Below are positions 17,699-26,140 of a DNA stretch of 64,000 nt, in pieces. This DNA is from Paraburkholderia aromaticivorans. GTDB taxonomy: Bacteria; Pseudomonadota; Gammaproteobacteria; Burkholderiales; Burkholderiaceae. Below the pieces are notes generated by a model. That model was not told the origin of the DNA, ran no database searches, and saw only the letters and a program-made list of their open reading frames with translations. Location: assembly GCF_002278075.1 (NCBI RefSeq), contig NZ_CP022989.1, positions 2,542,001-2,606,000 of the forward strand. Direction: 5' to 3'. The translations under genes were made by a program, and so were the position numbers. Within the stretch, counting starts at the first letter, position 1. Each line of letters opens with the position of its first letter.

Positions 17699-17855
17699 AT
17701 GCGTTCGGTGCAGCAGCGGCCGTCGCGGATCGGATTTGCCGGCGTAAAGGCAAGTCGCATGGGCCTGATCCACGGTAGTACGGCCGCAAAGCGTCCGCAG
17801 GAGCGGACGCGGTATCGGTACGCATTTGCCTTGCGCAAGTGCATGCGAATACGCC

Positions 17856-18818
17856 ATGCCCATCGAAAAACTCCTTGTTCCGCTACCCGCGGGCCTGAAA
17901 GTCTACGTTGAACGCCACGTATTCGATCCGGCCTTCGAGAGTGTCATTCTGATCAACGGCGCGTTAGCCACCACGGCGTCGTTTGGACAGACAATCAAAT
18001 ACCTCGGCGAGCGCTATAACCCGATTTGTTTCGATTTGCCCTATGCGGGACAATCGAAAGCGCATAACGAATGCGGCTTCATTCTCACCAAAGACGATGA
18101 AGTCGACATTCTGTTGCATCTGATCGGCCTATTCGAGCCGGGCTTCCTGTTGTCGGTTTCGTGGGGCGGCGTGGCGTCGTTGCTCGCGCTCTCGCGAGCG
18201 CGCACGAGCGTGCGCCGCGCCGTCATTGCGTCGTTCTCGCCGCTGCTCAACGAGCCCATGACGGCCTACGTAACCGCGGCGCGCGACTACATCGCGGCGG
18301 GCGAAAACCTGAAGGCCGCGCAGCTGCTCAACGACACCGTTGGCCGTCATCTGCCGCGGATCATGAAGCTCTACAACTACCGCTATCTGTCGACGCTGCC
18401 GCGCGACGAGCAGCACCAGGTGGCGTTTCATGTCGACCAGATTCTGGCGATTCGACCCGAGCAGTATCTGCACGAATTCCGCAATATCGACTGCGGGCTG
18501 AAGTTCATCAACGGCGAGCTCGATGATTACACCACGCCTGACGATGTCCGCTCGCTCAGCCTTCATCTGAAGCGCGCCGAGTTCGCGACCATCGAGCAGG
18601 CCGGCCATTTCCTCGATCTGGAAGGGCGCGCCGCGCTGCGTCAGGTGCGCGCGTCGATTCTCGATTACTTCGGCGCCGCGCCGGTTCAACAACCCGTGCG
18701 CGCGCTCGACTGCTTCGACGCGCTGAGCGGCCGCGCGTCACTCCCGCTCGCGCCCGAACCCGCCATCGCGAACATTGCCGCCCCGGCGCTGCAGGCCGCC
18801 GCCGATCACTCGTTCTAA
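17856..18818 (+). CDS. rhlA: RhlA, 3-(3-hydroxyalkanoyloxy)alkanoate (HAA) synthase
   Basis: A 320-residue alpha/beta hydrolase-fold acyltransferase that joins two 3-hydroxyacyl chains to give HAA, the lipid part of rhamnolipids. The nucleophile elbow SVSWGG has Ser at 102, the position of the catalytic Ser in Pseudomonas RhlA. The acid lies in NGELDDYTTPDD and the His in QAGHFLDLE. VILINGALATTASF and CFDLPYAGQSKAHN are strongly RhlA-like. The ATG at 17856 gives the usual N-terminus; an upstream in-frame start is less likely. The ribosome site is weak. The C-terminus is about 25 residues longer than in Pseudomonas. First gene of a tight seven-gene operon. Confidence 0.95.
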   Translation: MPIEKLLVPLPAGLKVYVERHVFDPAFESVILINGALATTASFGQTIKYLGERYNPICFDLPYAGQSKAHNECGFILTKDDEVDILLHLIGLFEPGFLLSVSWGGVASLLALSRARTSVRRAVIASFSPLLNEPMTAYVTAARDYIAAGENLKAAQLLNDTVGRHLPRIMKLYNYRYLSTLPRDEQHQVAFHVDQILAIRPEQYLHEFRNIDCGLKFINGELDDYTTPDDVRSLSLHLKRAEFATIEQAGHFLDLEGRAALRQVRASILDYFGAAPVQQPVRALDCFDALSGRASLPLAPEPAIANIAAPALQAAADHSF

Positions 18819-18832
18819 CAGGCCGAACTACC

Positions 18833-19402
18833 GTGAATATCGCTCAGAGCATTGCCATCGTCGCACCGTGGACACTGTGGCTGCTGTATTGGATCGCCAC
18901 GTCGAACCGGGTCAAGGAGACCGCGCGCAAAGAGGCGTCCGTATCGCGCACCTTGCAGTCGATTCCGTTGATCGCCGGCGGCGCGTTGATCGTGCTGCCG
19001 GAATTCAATGCCGCGGCGTGGTCCTTCGACTCGCATTCGATCGGTGCGCTGCAATACGCCGGCTTTGCCGTGCTGCTTGCCGGCCTCGCGTTTTCCGTGT
19101 GGGCGCGCTTGCATCTGGGCACCAACTGGAGCGTGTCGGTCACGCTGAAGGAAGATCACGAACTGGTGCGCAGCGGCCCGTATGGGCTCGTACGGCATCC
19201 TATCTATACCGGCTGTCTGCTGGCGCTCGCAGGCGCGGTGCTGATCGGCATGCAATGGCGCGGCGCGCTCGGGCTGCTGCTGATTTTCGCTTCGCTCGCA
19301 TACAAGGTGCGGATCGAAGAGAGCTGGCTGACCGGGCACTTCGGCCGGGCCTATTCGCAGTATCGCCGCGACGTGGCCGCGTTGATCCCGGGTCTCTTCT
19401 GA
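18833..19402 (+). CDS. isoprenylcysteine carboxyl methyltransferase (ICMT)-family membrane methyltransferase
   Basis: A 189-residue integral membrane protein with about five hydrophobic helices. The C-terminal half has the ICMT/PEMT signature SGPYGLVRHPIYTG (about 121-134), which binds S-adenosylmethionine, then an EESWLTGHFG...YSQYRRDV segment typical of the family. Known relatives methylate carboxyl groups of membrane-bound lipidated substrates. It lies 14 bases after rhlA and 10 before rhlB, so it is built into the rhamnolipid operon. The inference is carboxyl methylation of HAA or rhamnolipid; a housekeeping or unrelated role is possible. Starts with GTG at 18833. Confidence 0.88.
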   Translation: MNIAQSIAIVAPWTLWLLYWIATSNRVKETARKEASVSRTLQSIPLIAGGALIVLPEFNAAAWSFDSHSIGALQYAGFAVLLAGLAFSVWARLHLGTNWSVSVTLKEDHELVRSGPYGLVRHPIYTGCLLALAGAVLIGMQWRGALGLLLIFASLAYKVRIEESWLTGHFGRAYSQYRRDVAALIPGLF

Positions 19403-19412
19403 GCTGCCGGGC

Positions 19413-20744
19413 ATGACGCGAGTCATCATTACGGCGATCGGCTCCGCGGGCGACGTGCATCCGCTGCTCGGCATCGGCGCGGAACTCGCGTCGCGCGGAC
19501 ACGAGATCGTGTTCTGCACGCATGCGCCGTTCGCGCAAGCGGCGACGCACCGCGGCTTCACGTTCGTGCCGATCGGCACGGCCGCGCAATACGCGCAGGC
19601 CATGGAGAACCCGGCGCTGTGGCATCCGCGCACATCGTTTCGCACCTTGTGGGCGGTCATAGCGCCAACCCTGCGGGCGCATTTCGACACCCTGGCATCC
19701 TTGACCACGCAAGACACCGTGCTGGTGGGCACGTTATGGGCCTTTTCCGCGCGGCTGATGCAGGAGCTATACCACGTGCCGTTCGTGTCGGTTCAGGTGT
19801 CGCCGTCGACCCTGCTCTCCGCGCACGCTCCGCCGACCCATCCGCGGCTGACCATTCCACGGCGCTTGCCGCTCGCGGTGAAGGTGGCGCTGATGCGTGC
19901 GATCGAACGGTACGCGCTCGACAAGGTGTGCGGTCCGGCGCTGAACGCGCTGCGCGAGGAACTGGGGCTCGCACCGGCCACGCGCATCGTCGGCAAATGG
20001 TTGCATTCGACCGATGGCGTGCTATGTCTTTTTCCCGACTGGTTCGCGCGGCCCCAGCCCGACTGGCCGGCTCCGTATCGCATGAGCGGTTTTCCGCTCT
20101 TCAACGACACGCTTGAGCGCGCGCCCGATCCGCAACTCGATGCTTTTCTCGCCGCGGGCGAACGGCCCGTGGTGTTCACGGCGGGCTCGACGTTGATCGA
20201 TCAGGCGCGTTATGGGCGAGCGGTGCGCGACACGCTGCGGGAGAGCGGACTGCGCGGCATTCTGTTGCGGCCCGACGCGACAATCGAGCATCGCGCCGCT
20301 GAGGATGAGGCGATTTCGTTGCCCATGCTGATCGAGCGCCGCTATGTGCCGCTGCAAACCCTGTTGCCGCGTTGTCGCGCATTGGTGCATCACGGCGGCA
20401 TCGGCACGGCGGCGCTGGCCTATGCCGCCGGTATTCCGCAAGTGGTGACGCCGTTCGCACACGATCAGTTCGATAATGCGCGGCGCGTCGTCGCGAGTGG
20501 TTGCGGGGTTCGGCTCGACGGCCCCGTCGAGGCGCGGACTTTGACGCGCGCGCTCAGGCAGGTGCTCGGCAATCCGTCGATAGCGACGCAGTGCGGGCGC
20601 ATATACGACCGGCTTGCAACATCACCGAATGGATGCGAAGCGGCGGCGCGCGTGATCGAGGGTTTCATGCAGTCGCACCTGCGGCAACAAGGCGATGTTC
20701 GCGCGTTGTCGACCACGTTGTCGCTTAGCGGGCAGAGCGTATGA
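19413..20744 (+). CDS. rhlB: RhlB, rhamnosyltransferase 1 catalytic subunit
   Basis: A 443-residue GT-B glycosyltransferase of family 1. The N-terminus MTRVIITAIGSAGDVHPLLG and the C-terminal nucleotide-sugar site HHGGIGTAALAYAAGIPQVV (split: HHGGIGT, AAGIPQVV, PFAHDQFDNA) are typical. It transfers rhamnose from dTDP-L-rhamnose to HAA, giving mono-rhamnolipid at the inner membrane. The stop overlaps the start of the MFS gene by 4 bases. Identified by fold plus operon position between rhlA and rhlC. Confidence 0.93.
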   Translation: MTRVIITAIGSAGDVHPLLGIGAELASRGHEIVFCTHAPFAQAATHRGFTFVPIGTAAQYAQAMENPALWHPRTSFRTLWAVIAPTLRAHFDTLASLTTQDTVLVGTLWAFSARLMQELYHVPFVSVQVSPSTLLSAHAPPTHPRLTIPRRLPLAVKVALMRAIERYALDKVCGPALNALREELGLAPATRIVGKWLHSTDGVLCLFPDWFARPQPDWPAPYRMSGFPLFNDTLERAPDPQLDAFLAAGERPVVFTAGSTLIDQARYGRAVRDTLRESGLRGILLRPDATIEHRAAEDEAISLPMLIERRYVPLQTLLPRCRALVHHGGIGTAALAYAAGIPQVVTPFAHDQFDNARRVVASGCGVRLDGPVEARTLTRALRQVLGNPSIATQCGRIYDRLATSPNGCEAAARVIEGFMQSHLRQQGDVRALSTTLSLSGQSV

Positions 20745-22375
20745 GCACCGCGGCGCGACTGCCGGAGCGCGGCGACGCAAGCCATGATGTGCGCCCCGGC
20801 ATGGACCGCGGGCGCGAAAAACACAACGAGCACAACGAGCACAACGAGCAAACCATGCGCGGCGCCCGCCTCGCGTTGCTGACCTTCGCGCTCTCGCTCG
20901 CGACCTTCATCGAGGTGCTCGACTCGACAGTGACCAACGTCGCGGTCCCGGCCATTTCCGGCGGCCTTGGCGTGTCCAACAGCCAGGGCACGTGGGTGAT
21001 CAGTTCGTACTCGGTCGCCGCCGCGATCGCCGTGCCGTTGACCGGCTGGCTATCGCGACGGCTCGGCGAAACGCGCCTCTTTCTCGCGGCCGTGATCCTG
21101 TTCACGCTGACCTCGCTGCTTTGCGGCGTGGCCGGCGACTTTCATGTGCTGGTGGTGTGCCGCGCATTGCAGGGCCTCTTTTCCGGGCCGATGGTGCCGC
21201 TCTCGCAAACCATCCTGTTGCGCACGTTTCCACCCGATAAGCGCGTCGTGGCCCTGGCGCTGTGGGCGATGACCGTGCTGCTCGCGCCGATCCTGGGGCC
21301 GGTGGTCGGCGGCTGGATCATCGACAGCTTCTCGTGGCCCTGGATCTTCCTGATCAATTTGCCGATCGGCATCTTTTCGTTCGCGGTGTGCACGACACTG
21401 CTGCGTGCCGATACCCGTGACGCGCACGGTGCGACGGCCGCGCCGGTCGACTTGCCGGGCATCGTGCTGCTGATCGTGGGCGTCGGTTCGCTGCAGGCGG
21501 TGCTCGATCTCGGTCACGACCGCGGCTGGTTCGACTCGCCGCTCATCCTGACGCTCGCCATCGTCGCCGCGCTCGCGATCGTGTCGCTGCTGATCTGGGA
21601 GGCGGGCGAGAAGGATCCGGTGATCGACCTCAGTCTGTTTCGCGACCGCACGTTCTCGTTCTGCGTGTTGATCATTTCGCTCGGGATGATGAGTTTCTCC
21701 GTAGTCGGCGTGATCTTCCCGTTGTGGCTCCAGGCCGTGATGGGCTACACCGCGTATCAGGCCGGGCTCGCCACGGCTCCGCTCGGCGTGCTCGCGCTGG
21801 TGTTCTCGATTCTCGTCGGGATCTTTTCCGCGCGTTTCGACGCGCGCGTGCTCGCCACGTTCGGCTTTCTGATCTTTGCGGGCGTGCTGTGGTGGGACGC
21901 GCACTTCACGCTGACGATGACCTTTACCCAGATCATCACGCCCGGCCTGATTCAGGGTATCGGCTTGCCATGCTTCTTTATTCCGCTGACCGCCGCGACG
22001 CTGTCGCGCGTGTCCGACGACAAGCTCGCCGCGGCCTCCAGTCTGTCGAACTTTCTGCGCACGCTGTCGGCCGCGTTCGGCACGGCGATGAGCGTGACGC
22101 TGTGGGACAACCGCGCGCTGTATCACTACGACGTGGTCGCGCAGTCGGTGGCGAAGTCCTCCGGCAACACGCAGCGCTTCGTTCAGATCCTGCACGGCAT
22201 GGGCATCGACGGCGCGCGCGAACTGAGCACGCTGCATCATATCGTGCAGCAACAGGCGTACATGATGGCGACCGGCGACATGTTCTACATGGCGAGCGTC
22301 ACCTGCCTCGTGCTCGCCGCGATGATGTGGCTGACGCGCCCCAAACGCGGCGCCGCGATGACACCAGGTCACTGA
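20741..22375 (+). CDS. DHA2-family MFS efflux pump (EmrB-like)
   Basis: About 544 residues with 14 predicted helices. The DHA2 motif LDSTVTNVAVPAI lies in helix 1, and WVISSYSVAAAIAVPLTGWL follows. The N-terminus has a charged extension with the repeat HNEHNEHNE, coded by three tandem copies of CACAACGAG; later in-frame ATGs near 20801 and 20855 could be the true start. Forms, with the EmrA-like and NodT-like products of this operon, a tripartite pump, probably for rhamnolipid export. Starts within the rhlB stop (ATGA). Confidence 0.92.
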   Translation: MSTAARLPERGDASHDVRPGMDRGREKHNEHNEHNEQTMRGARLALLTFALSLATFIEVLDSTVTNVAVPAISGGLGVSNSQGTWVISSYSVAAAIAVPLTGWLSRRLGETRLFLAAVILFTLTSLLCGVAGDFHVLVVCRALQGLFSGPMVPLSQTILLRTFPPDKRVVALALWAMTVLLAPILGPVVGGWIIDSFSWPWIFLINLPIGIFSFAVCTTLLRADTRDAHGATAAPVDLPGIVLLIVGVGSLQAVLDLGHDRGWFDSPLILTLAIVAALAIVSLLIWEAGEKDPVIDLSLFRDRTFSFCVLIISLGMMSFSVVGVIFPLWLQAVMGYTAYQAGLATAPLGVLALVFSILVGIFSARFDARVLATFGFLIFAGVLWWDAHFTLTMTFTQIITPGLIQGIGLPCFFIPLTAATLSRVSDDKLAAASSLSNFLRTLSAAFGTAMSVTLWDNRALYHYDVVAQSVAKSSGNTQRFVQILHGMGIDGARELSTLHHIVQQQAYMMATGDMFYMASVTCLVLAAMMWLTRPKRGAAMTPGH

Positions 22376-22385
22376 GGAAATCGAC

Positions 22386-23372
22386 ATGACGATGCTGGGC
22401 GCGTTGGTCATCCTGTTCCACCCGAGCGAGACGCAGTTGGCGCGAGCCGTGGCGATGCATGCGGAGTGCGACTGTCTGCTGGTGGTCGACAATTCCCCGC
22501 AGCCGGACAGCCGCGCGGCCCGGATGCTGCGCGAAGCAGGGATCGAGGTGCTGCATCACGGCAATCGCCACGGTATTGCCGGCGCTTTCAATGGCGGTCT
22601 GAGCGCGCTATTCGAGCGGGGCGCGGATGCCGTCGCGCTATTCGATCAGGATTCCGACGCGCCGGCCGGCTATTTCGACGTGATGCGCGACCGGTGTGCG
22701 TCGCTAAGCGGCGGTGCGTTCCTTGCCGGCCCGCGCATCTTCGATGAAAACGATCAGCGCTTCCTGCCGGAACTGGCGACCAGCGGTCTCGGTGTCGAAA
22801 GACTGTCGTTGCGCGCGGACCTCAGCGTGCAGCGCTGCGCGTTCCTGATCTCGTCCGGTTGTGTGATTTCGCGCGAAGCGTTCGCGCGTCTTGGCCGGTT
22901 CGACGAATCGTTGTTTATCGATCATGTGGACACCGAGTATTGCCTGCGTGCGTTGTTGAGCAATGTACCGATATACGTGGTGCCGTCGCTGGTGTTGTCG
23001 CATCGGATCGGTACGCGGCGGCGCCATCAATGGGGGCCCTTCGAGTTGACGACGATGAATCACCCTGCATTCCGGCGCTACTACAGCGCGCGTAACGGCA
23101 TGCAATTGGCGTTCCAATATGGAATGCGTCTGCCGGTCGCGTTCGTGCCGAATCTGCTTACGTTGTGGCAAATCGTCCAGATCGTGCTGCTGGAAAAACA
23201 CAAGCTCGGCAAGCTGAATGCGATTGCACTCGGTTTGATCGATGGATTGTTCGTGCGGATGGGGCCGCTCGCGCGGACCCGCCCGCGCCTCGCGGCTAAA
23301 ACGGCCGGGCCGGTCGGCGTGAATGCGCCGGCCGCGACCGAAGGTGCGATGCCTCGCACGCACCATTCATGA
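22386..23372 (+). CDS. rhlC: RhlC, second rhamnosyltransferase
   Basis: A 328-residue GT-A family 2 glycosyltransferase. VVDNSPQPD and GNRHGIAGAFN are family segments, and LFDQDSDAPAG carries the DxD-type metal site. FIDHVDTEYCLRA is the conserved acid region. It adds the second rhamnose to mono-rhamnolipid. The MFS gene ends 10 bases upstream; its own stop overlaps the start of the outer-membrane factor gene (ATGA). Confidence 0.92.
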   Translation: MTMLGALVILFHPSETQLARAVAMHAECDCLLVVDNSPQPDSRAARMLREAGIEVLHHGNRHGIAGAFNGGLSALFERGADAVALFDQDSDAPAGYFDVMRDRCASLSGGAFLAGPRIFDENDQRFLPELATSGLGVERLSLRADLSVQRCAFLISSGCVISREAFARLGRFDESLFIDHVDTEYCLRALLSNVPIYVVPSLVLSHRIGTRRRHQWGPFELTTMNHPAFRRYYSARNGMQLAFQYGMRLPVAFVPNLLTLWQIVQIVLLEKHKLGKLNAIALGLIDGLFVRMGPLARTRPRLAAKTAGPVGVNAPAATEGAMPRTHHS

Positions 23373-24913
23373 GGCAGTCGATGCGATGGTTCATGCGCCA
23401 TTCGTGGCCCTTGCTGCTGATTGCAGCGGCGCTGAGCGGCTGCGTCAGCGATGCCGGCCTGCACGCGAACGTGCAGCCTCGCAAGCCATCCGCCGATGCG
23501 CTCGCGCAAACCGCCGGTTCGGGCGCGACGGGCGCGTGGCCCACGCCCGATTGGGTCAGGCGCTATCGCGATTCGCAGCTCGACGAGTTGCTTGCCGAAG
23601 CCCTGCAGAACAACCCGGACCTGCAGATCGCCAAGGCACGCGTGGGCGCCGCGCAGGCGCAGCTCGAACAGTTCGCGTCACTGACCGGCCTCACCGGCAC
23701 GGCGCTCGCGACCGTGAGCAAGACCCGCTTGCCGCAACCCGCGGATGTGGCCAACGTGTCGGTTGGCGGCCAGCAGATTCCGGTGCAGGTGTTCAACGAT
23801 CCGACGGTGTCGCCGGCCGCGCTGCTCGCGGGTCTAAGCTATCAACTCGATCTGTGGGGCAAGAATGCGGCGCTCTCGCGCGGGTTGCTGTCGACGCGCG
23901 ACGCGGCACGGATCGACGCGGAGCAGGTGCGGCTCACGCTGACGGTCGCGATGGTGACGCTCTACTGCGAACTCGATCGCGCGTACGCGATGCGGGACAT
24001 TCTGCGGCAGAAGCAGCAGGCGGCCGAGCAGGTCGATGCAGTGTTGCGCGAACGTAGCGCGCGCGGCCTCGATAACGCCTACGACGCCGCGGACGCGGCG
24101 CTCAAGCAAAGCCGGCTCGCCGCGCAACAGACGCTCAACGACGAGCGCATCACCTTGACCGAGTTGCAGATCGGCGTGATGAGCGGGCGCGGGCCGGAGC
24201 GCGGTTTGTCGCTGCATCGACCGCAACTGGCTGCGGCGGCAGATGCTCCGCTGCCGGCGCATCTGCCGGTGGATCTGCTGGGCCGCCGCCCGGATATCGT
24301 GGCGGCGCGGTTGCGGGCCGAAGCCGCGCTCGCCAATGTCGACGCCACGCGCGCGCAGTTCTATCCCGACGTGAATCTCGTCGCATTCGCCGGTTTGACT
24401 GCGTTGACGCCTGCCGCGCTGTTCTCGCGCGCGGCGATGACCGGCTCGATCGGCCCGGCGATCTCGCTGCCGGTGTTCGACCGCAACCGCTTGCGCGCAC
24501 AACTGGGTGGCGACTATGCGAACGTCGACGCTTCGGTGAGCCTCTACAACAAGACCGTCGACGAAGCGCTCGGCGAGGTCGCGCGCCAGCTCGCTTCATT
24601 GCGCACGGTGGACACGCTCACGAACGAGCAGAGCCGCGCGGTGGAGGCGGCCACACGCATCGTCGCGATTGCCGAAGAGCGGCACCGGCGTGGTATCGGC
24701 ATGCAGAAGGACGTGACGCTCGCCGACCTCTCGTTGCTCGATGAACGCGCACAGCAGGTCGATTTGCAGGGCCGCCGCAGGCTGTTGCAGGTTGCGCTGG
24801 TCGGCGCGCTCGGTGGCGGCTTCGACGAGCGCAAGGTGGCCGGCGCGCCGATTTCGCATGATCAGACTTCTTTTCCCTCTCACGCGCGCATTACGGATAC
24901 GCACTTCGATTGA
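23369..24913 (+). CDS. NodT-family outer-membrane efflux lipoprotein
   Basis: A 514-residue TolC/OprM-like factor. The lipoprotein signal ends in the lipobox LSGC (Cys near residue 25). Two repeats of the OEP domain with long helices follow; LLGRRPDIVAARLRAEAA is the signature segment of NodT proteins. Spans periplasm and outer membrane as the exit duct of a tripartite pump. Starts inside the rhlC stop and is followed directly by the EmrA-like gene, which begins at the next base. Confidence 0.92.
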   Translation: MRQSMRWFMRHSWPLLLIAAALSGCVSDAGLHANVQPRKPSADALAQTAGSGATGAWPTPDWVRRYRDSQLDELLAEALQNNPDLQIAKARVGAAQAQLEQFASLTGLTGTALATVSKTRLPQPADVANVSVGGQQIPVQVFNDPTVSPAALLAGLSYQLDLWGKNAALSRGLLSTRDAARIDAEQVRLTLTVAMVTLYCELDRAYAMRDILRQKQQAAEQVDAVLRERSARGLDNAYDAADAALKQSRLAAQQTLNDERITLTELQIGVMSGRGPERGLSLHRPQLAAAADAPLPAHLPVDLLGRRPDIVAARLRAEAALANVDATRAQFYPDVNLVAFAGLTALTPAALFSRAAMTGSIGPAISLPVFDRNRLRAQLGGDYANVDASVSLYNKTVDEALGEVARQLASLRTVDTLTNEQSRAVEAATRIVAIAEERHRRGIGMQKDVTLADLSLLDERAQQVDLQGRRRLLQVALVGALGGGFDERKVAGAPISHDQTSFPSHARITDTHFD

Positions 24914-26140
24914 ATGCACAACGATAAACAGGCACATGACGCCGCCGGCTGGACCGAGGAACGGGTCAACGCGGCAAGCGCGGCGCTCGGCGAGCGCAAT
25001 CGCATCCGGGCGACGCGCCGGCGCCGCTTCGGCATTTTCTTCGGCGTGGTGGCGCTTGCCGGCGCGGCGTGGCTGAGCTGGTGGGGGGTGAGTGCGCGCT
25101 TTTTCGAAGAGACCGACGACGCTTACGTTGCCGGCAATATTGTCCAGATTGCCGCGCAAATACCGGGTACCGTCACCGACATTCTGGTGGACAACACGCG
25201 CCAGGTGCGCGCGGGGCAGCCGCTCGTCAAACTCGACGACGCCGAAGCGGCGGCGGCGTTCGCACAGGCGCGCGCACAGTTGACGCTCGCGGTGCGGCAG
25301 GTGGCGAACGCGACGATCTCGCGCAAGCTCTACGTGCAATCCATCGACGCGCGCCGCGCCGAGCTGGCGTTGGCGCAGCGCGCGTTGGCGGCGCGCGACC
25401 ACGCGTTGGTCGAAGTCGTGTCGCCGGAAGAACTGGCGCGCGCGCGCGAAGCGGTCGCCGTTGCGCAGGCGAATCTGGCTTCGGCACAGGTTCAACTGGA
25501 CGCCGCACGCGCGCTCGGCGGCAAATTTCCGATCGAGTCGAGCCCGCCTGTTCTGCAAGCGGCCGCGCAAGTGCGGCTCGCCTATCGCAATCTGCAGCGC
25601 ACGACTATCGTGTCGCCCGTCGACGGCACGGTCGGGCAGCGTTCGGTGCAGATCGGCCAGCAGGTCGGGCCGGGTATCGCGCTGATGTCGATCATTCCGC
25701 TCGAACGTCTGTGGGTCGAGGCCAACTTCAAGGAAGGGCAGATCCGCGGCATGCGCGTGGGGCAGGCGGTGCGCATCGTGTCGGATGTATATGGCTCGCA
25801 GGTGGTGTATCGCGGGCGGGTGGAGGGCTTTTCGGCGGGCACCGGCAGTGCGTTTTCGATGCTGCCGCCGCAGAACGCCGCCGGTAACTGGATCAAGGTC
25901 GTGCAGCGTGTGCCGATCGTGATTTCGCTGGACCCGGCCGATCTCGCCGCGCATCCGCTGCGGCTCGGATTGTCGATGCAGGTGTCGGTGGATACGCACG
26001 TGCGCAGTGGCCAACTGATCGGCAACGATACGCCCGCGCCGACGCAAAGCACGCGTGTGCATGACAACGTTGCGCGTGATGCGGATGCGTTGATCGAGAG
26101 AATTATTCGGGAGAATAGCGAGCGGGGAGGGGATAGATAG
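24914..26140 (+). CDS. EmrA/HlyD-type membrane-fusion adaptor
   Basis: A 408-residue periplasmic adaptor. One N-terminal anchor helix (about 36-55), then TDDAYVAGNIVQIAAQIPGTV, the biotinyl-lipoyl motif of EmrA. A long helical hairpin rich in Ala (about 105-215) and the second lipoyl half IVSPVDGTVGQ follow. Connects the MFS pump to the outer-membrane factor. The start codon directly follows the previous stop. Last gene of the rhamnolipid operon. Confidence 0.93.
   Translation: MHNDKQAHDAAGWTEERVNAASAALGERNRIRATRRRRFGIFFGVVALAGAAWLSWWGVSARFFEETDDAYVAGNIVQIAAQIPGTVTDILVDNTRQVRAGQPLVKLDDAEAAAAFAQARAQLTLAVRQVANATISRKLYVQSIDARRAELALAQRALAARDHALVEVVSPEELARAREAVAVAQANLASAQVQLDAARALGGKFPIESSPPVLQAAAQVRLAYRNLQRTTIVSPVDGTVGQRSVQIGQQVGPGIALMSIIPLERLWVEANFKEGQIRGMRVGQAVRIVSDVYGSQVVYRGRVEGFSAGTGSAFSMLPPQNAAGNWIKVVQRVPIVISLDPADLAAHPLRLGLSMQVSVDTHVRSGQLIGNDTPAPTQSTRVHDNVARDADALIERIIRENSERGGDR

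Follow-up and report, generated by a model that had tools for sequence, protein, structure and literature searches.

A probable rhlM orthologue in the rhamnolipid operon of Paraburkholderia aromaticivorans and its predicted rhamnolipid methyl ester product

The window analysed here, a stretch of 64,000 nucleotides from Paraburkholderia aromaticivorans (NZ_CP022989.1, positions 2,542,001 to 2,606,000), carries a rhamnolipid operon in which a gene of the ICMT family lies between rhlA and rhlB. We consider it very probable (about 0.93) that this gene is an orthologue of rhlM and that the product of the operon is a rhamnolipid methyl ester. In Paraburkholderia kirstenboschensis F3, the strain from which rhamnolipid methyl esters were isolated, the ICMT-family gene that lies downstream of rhlA (locus tag RW095_02150) was given the name rhlM (Liu et al. 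2024, PMC11069360). The first-pass annotation of this DNA reached the published function from the raw sequence alone, and the result holds nothing new for specialists: the rhlA-rhlM-rhlB arrangement was in print by 2020 and its function by 2024, so that the finding is already known. The analysis extends the list of genomes in which a pathway to rhamnolipid methyl esters is likely by one, and it describes close rhlM homologues that are tightly bound to rhl operons.

The operon and its methyltransferase

The ORF list and profile searches place seven genes on the forward strand in a compact operon at positions 17856-26140 of the window (Table 1). The intergenic distances, taken in order from rhlA to the adaptor gene, are 14, 10, -4, 10, -4 and 0 bases; the rhlB and EmrB-type permease genes overlap by 4 bases, as do the rhlC and NodT-type channel genes, and the start of the adaptor gene directly abuts the channel gene. 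With rhlA ending at 18818 and rhlB starting at 19413, rhlM is flanked by gaps of 14 and 10 bases, and on this point the first-pass annotation proved exact in both coordinates and gaps. Its description of the neighbouring genes was equally borne out by profile matches for RhlA, RhlB, an EmrB-type pump, RhlC, a channel and an adaptor. For rhlA, a longer TTG start at 17826 is also present in the ORF list; for the adaptor, EmrA is the top NCBIfam match, with a score below that model's cut-off.

Table 1. Genes of the operon, with positions numbered within the window
Gene or product	Position	Strand	Basis
rhlA, HAA synthase	17856..18818	+	ORF; alpha/beta hydrolase fold above cut-off; 57-86% identity to RhlA matches in other family genomes
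rhlM, membrane carboxyl methyltransferase of the ICMT family, proposed to synthesise rhamnolipid methyl esters	18833..19402	+	PF04140 and PF04191 above cut-off
rhlB, first rhamnosyltransferase	19413..20744	+	Glyco_transf_28 and EryCIII-like C-terminal domains above cut-off; rhlM neighbour kept across genomes
EmrB-type DHA2 MFS efflux permease	20741..22375	+	TIGR00711, 465.9 bits (cut-off 230.2)
rhlC, second rhamnosyltransferase (di-rhamnolipid)	22386..23372	+	TIGR01556, 226.2 bits (cut-off 200.55)
NodT-type outer-membrane efflux channel	23369..24913	+	TIGR01845, 294.7 bits (cut-off 210.05)
EmrA/HlyD-type periplasmic adaptor	24914..26140	+	HlyD_D23 and HlyD_3 above cut-off

The six neighbouring genes have GC3 values of 0.760-0.879, a range that includes the value of the ICMT-family gene (0.805), and we therefore see no compositional sign of a recent insertion of rhlM. 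For dTDP-L-rhamnose, the genome contains adjacent matches to rmlC and rmlD (C1:431408-432819), each above cut-off, which makes a supply of this sugar donor in the strain likely.

The rhlM reading frame opens with a GTG codon and encodes a protein of 189 amino acids. Against Pfam, this protein scores 54.3 bits with ICMT (PF04140, cut-off 24) and 46.1 bits with PEMT (PF04191, cut-off 25), while a simple hydropathy scan delimits four hydrophobic segments (residues 3-21, 44-62, 70-88 and 135-153); the PF04140 score together with these segments identifies it as an ICMT-family integral membrane protein. Its top PDB sequence matches in a phmmer search are two ICMTs, the archaeal 4a2n (E 8.3e-11) and the eukaryotic 5vg9 (E 2.2e-6), both of which are thus sequence relatives. 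The substrate of the eukaryotic ICMT is a prenylated protein (PMC11069360), whereas that of the window protein would, by analogy with F3, be the carboxyl group of a glycolipid.

The segment SGPYGLVRHPIYTG starts at residue 114 of the protein, and residues H122 and E162 carry the same numbers as the SAM-contact residues of the published F3 RhlM. Among 19 columns examined in an alignment of 36 RhlM-like rows (28 from rhl loci, the window included, and 8 others), N98, W99, G115, Y117, R121, H122, P123, Y125, E162, E163 and Y177 do not vary. Since they are kept in the eight non-rhl rows too, these invariant residues, H122 and E162 included, are features of the wider family and do not single out RhlM.

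In a tree of 35 rows, a branch supported at 99/99 separates the 28 rhl-linked rows (again with the window) from the 7 others, and the named RhlM rows nearest to the window protein are from Paraburkholderia. This tree omits five rows from the strain's own genome and L031. An earlier tree that contained the five own-genome rows required two changes for the rhl grouping and placed the very long L002_own inside the rhl group; it was set aside as unreliable because L005_own and L006_own are apparently wrong ORFs, picked by a loose motif rule and out of step with the reported PF04191 frames, and because other rows have very long branches. The input to both trees was limited to tblastn pieces no shorter than 150 residues, which excludes L029, L033, L034, L035 and L044. 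Of the 30 close matches (at least 60% identity), the trees contain 7, namely the strain's own copy and those of G164, G093, G199, G183, G128 and G219.

We read orthology to F3 RhlM from the operon position, the SAM-contact residues and the common clade of the rhl-linked copies. Both proteins are encoded by an ICMT-family gene downstream of rhlA in an rhl cluster and agree in the numbering of H122 and E162, and no difference between them was seen in a comparison made through the published description in PMC11069360 (gene place and residue numbers).

Gene order across genomes

In the genome_contigs collection, 29 loci encode a relative of the window protein, and rhlA, rhlM and rhlB follow one another in this order at 21 of them (L007-L027). 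The pump genes and rhlC are also present at 19 of these 21 ordered loci, contig ends cutting the other two (L017 and L019); the locus titled B. lata (L021) has the same operon as the window. The remaining eight loci show neither rhlA nor rhlB: in five (L029, L030, L031, L033 and L034) a contig end is close to the match, and in L028, L032 and L035 there is DNA on both flanks and rhl genes are absent there.

Among 249 family genomes, the window's own included, RhlM-like matches at E <= 1e-20 occur in 35. The first-pass annotation had stated that its idea would be refuted by a gene found mostly away from rhl loci with another assigned substrate; the gene's location was examined, and every match with at least 60% identity (30 of 30) is flanked by rhlA and rhlB on the same strand, so that the close homologues do not refute the idea. 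The other five matches, with 31-49% identity, have neither gene alongside. As the order is shared by 21 of 29 loci and by all 30 close matches, the place of rhlM between rhlA and rhlB is not due to chance.

These data also bear on whether the protein might be a general ICMT/PEMT-like membrane methyltransferase, acting on a prenylated protein, a phospholipid or a thiol and merely sitting in the operon. The NCBIfam protein-S-isoprenylcysteine O-methyltransferase model (NF040696) does match, and the genome has six PF04191 places, the gene in the window and five others, with more distant homologues lying outside rhl loci; the NF040696 score of 80.6 bits, however, is far below the equivalog cut-off of 160, the close matches are rhl-linked without exception, and rhlM is required for the ester in F3 (PMC11069360). 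We regard such a general enzyme as exceedingly improbable.

Viewed from the side of the rhamnosyltransferase, 32 of the same 249 genomes have an RhlB match at E <= 1e-60, and rhlM is present in 30 of them. All the shares given here are a property of the sample drawn and no census. It is absent from G083, in both of its rhl copies, and from G052. According to the first-pass annotation, the gene is missing from this place in the Burkholderia rhl clusters known to it, a view that fits these two genomes but fails for the other 30.

Variations on the common layout were also found. In G183 (L047) the order is rhlA-rhlM-rhlB-MFS-channel-adaptor-rhlC, with rhlC last, and in G219 (L049) it is rhlA-rhlM-rhlB-rhlC; within the 17.5 kb examined there, the only pump homologue is an MFS match that is weak (26.6%) and lies on the opposite strand. 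In G187, the rhlA match (C33:104134-104950) is split into two pieces that overlap but differ in frame, and one of them has an internal stop, so that this rhlA looks broken or misassembled; rhlM (residues 1-189 of 189) and rhlB (1-420 of 443) are long unbroken matches in the same genome. The plasmid collection gave 129 records, of which three Burkholderia records larger than 3 Mb match at 73-75% identity and the other 126 lie below 60% among the matches listed; it added nothing on rhlM function.

Proposed pathway and published function

In the pathway that we propose, RhlA would join two 3-hydroxyacyl chains to give HAA, to which RhlB and RhlC would add two rhamnoses from dTDP-L-rhamnose. RhlM, as a small membrane enzyme, would methylate the completed rhamnolipid at its free carboxyl, with S-adenosylmethionine as methyl donor, and the end product, a non-ionic rhamnolipid methyl ester, would probably be exported via the pump whose genes belong to the operon. 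From the behaviour of F3 we infer that the strain produces the ester and, following the proposal of the F3 authors, that the methyl group is added last; the three pump genes are plausible candidates for the export route.

The experiments on F3 reported in PMC11069360 define the function of rhlM. Deletion of the gene abolished the methyl esters while free rhamnolipids and HAAs were still produced, and complementation brought the esters back. Labelled methionine introduced three deuteriums into the ester, identifying methionine as the methyl source, and the authors propose methylation as the final step of the pathway.

An alternative order of events, with methylation of HAA preceding rhamnosylation and neutral HAA methyl esters as the released product, would agree with the established chemistry of HAA, which has a free carboxyl, and with the position of rhlM directly after rhlA. 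It is nevertheless very improbable, as HAAs but no methylated HAAs were found in the F3 rhlB mutant (PMC11069360). Of the two kinds of methyl ester put forward by the first-pass annotation, those of rhamnolipids are accordingly the ones demonstrated in F3, whereas those of HAA find no counterpart in that mutant. We also consider it improbable that the window enzyme has a wider substrate range than that of F3, accepting for example HAA or mono-rhamnolipid as well and yielding mixed neutral surfactants.

The same source describes a separate ICMT sequence cluster found mostly in rhamnolipid contexts, and it counts rhlM in 92% of the Paraburkholderia species with rhl genes; in Burkholderia, one of two subclades is without rhlM, with one exception (PMC11069360). 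The arrangement is not an unusual one, and a methyl transferase ORF between rhlA and rhlB had already been noted in B. cenocepacia and B. ambifaria (2020, PMC7054101). That ORF matches the window gene in its position and in the type of operon; PMC7054101, in its available part, states the presence of the ORF only, and its species are Burkholderia, whereas among named RhlM rows those closest to the window protein come from Paraburkholderia. As for the compounds, PMC11069360 refers to one earlier report of natural methyl rhamnolipids (Hirayama and Kato 1982) and to a non-ionic or methyl rhamnolipid of Burkholderia lata (Gauthier et al. 2024). The latter speaks for the rhlM reading, since the operon of the window recurs at the locus titled B. 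lata (L021). Judged by title, PMC11069360 is the only paper concerned with the gene among the literature matches listed. The available parts of PMC12004965 and PMC9958762 contain nothing on the rhlM gene, and in that of the review PMC12005046 the term "rhamnolipid methyl ester" occurs once.

Homologues outside rhl loci

The substrate of the more distant RhlM-like proteins outside rhl operons is a question that PMC11069360 raises too. Twenty distant homologues were scanned for their gene contexts, and no defensible common theme was apparent among them. RhlM-like proteins with 48-49% identity and neither rhlA nor rhlB nearby are encoded at L040:6943-10493 (G072), next to an MdoG-type periplasmic glucan gene and an LtrA-type gene, and at L041:6511-8779 (G048). 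At L043:5472-9310 (G171), an RhlM-like protein of about 40% identity is encoded, and a squalene/phytoene-synthase-type gene in the same orientation lies about 2 kb upstream. The region L044:8554-10903 of G143, which belongs to the genus of the window, has an ICMT-family gene only distantly related to rhlM (31% identity to RhlM), directly followed by a fatty-acid-hydroxylase-type gene (PF04116) and then an alpha/beta hydrolase gene, a layout that resembles the Rhodanobacter arrangement described in PMC11069360.
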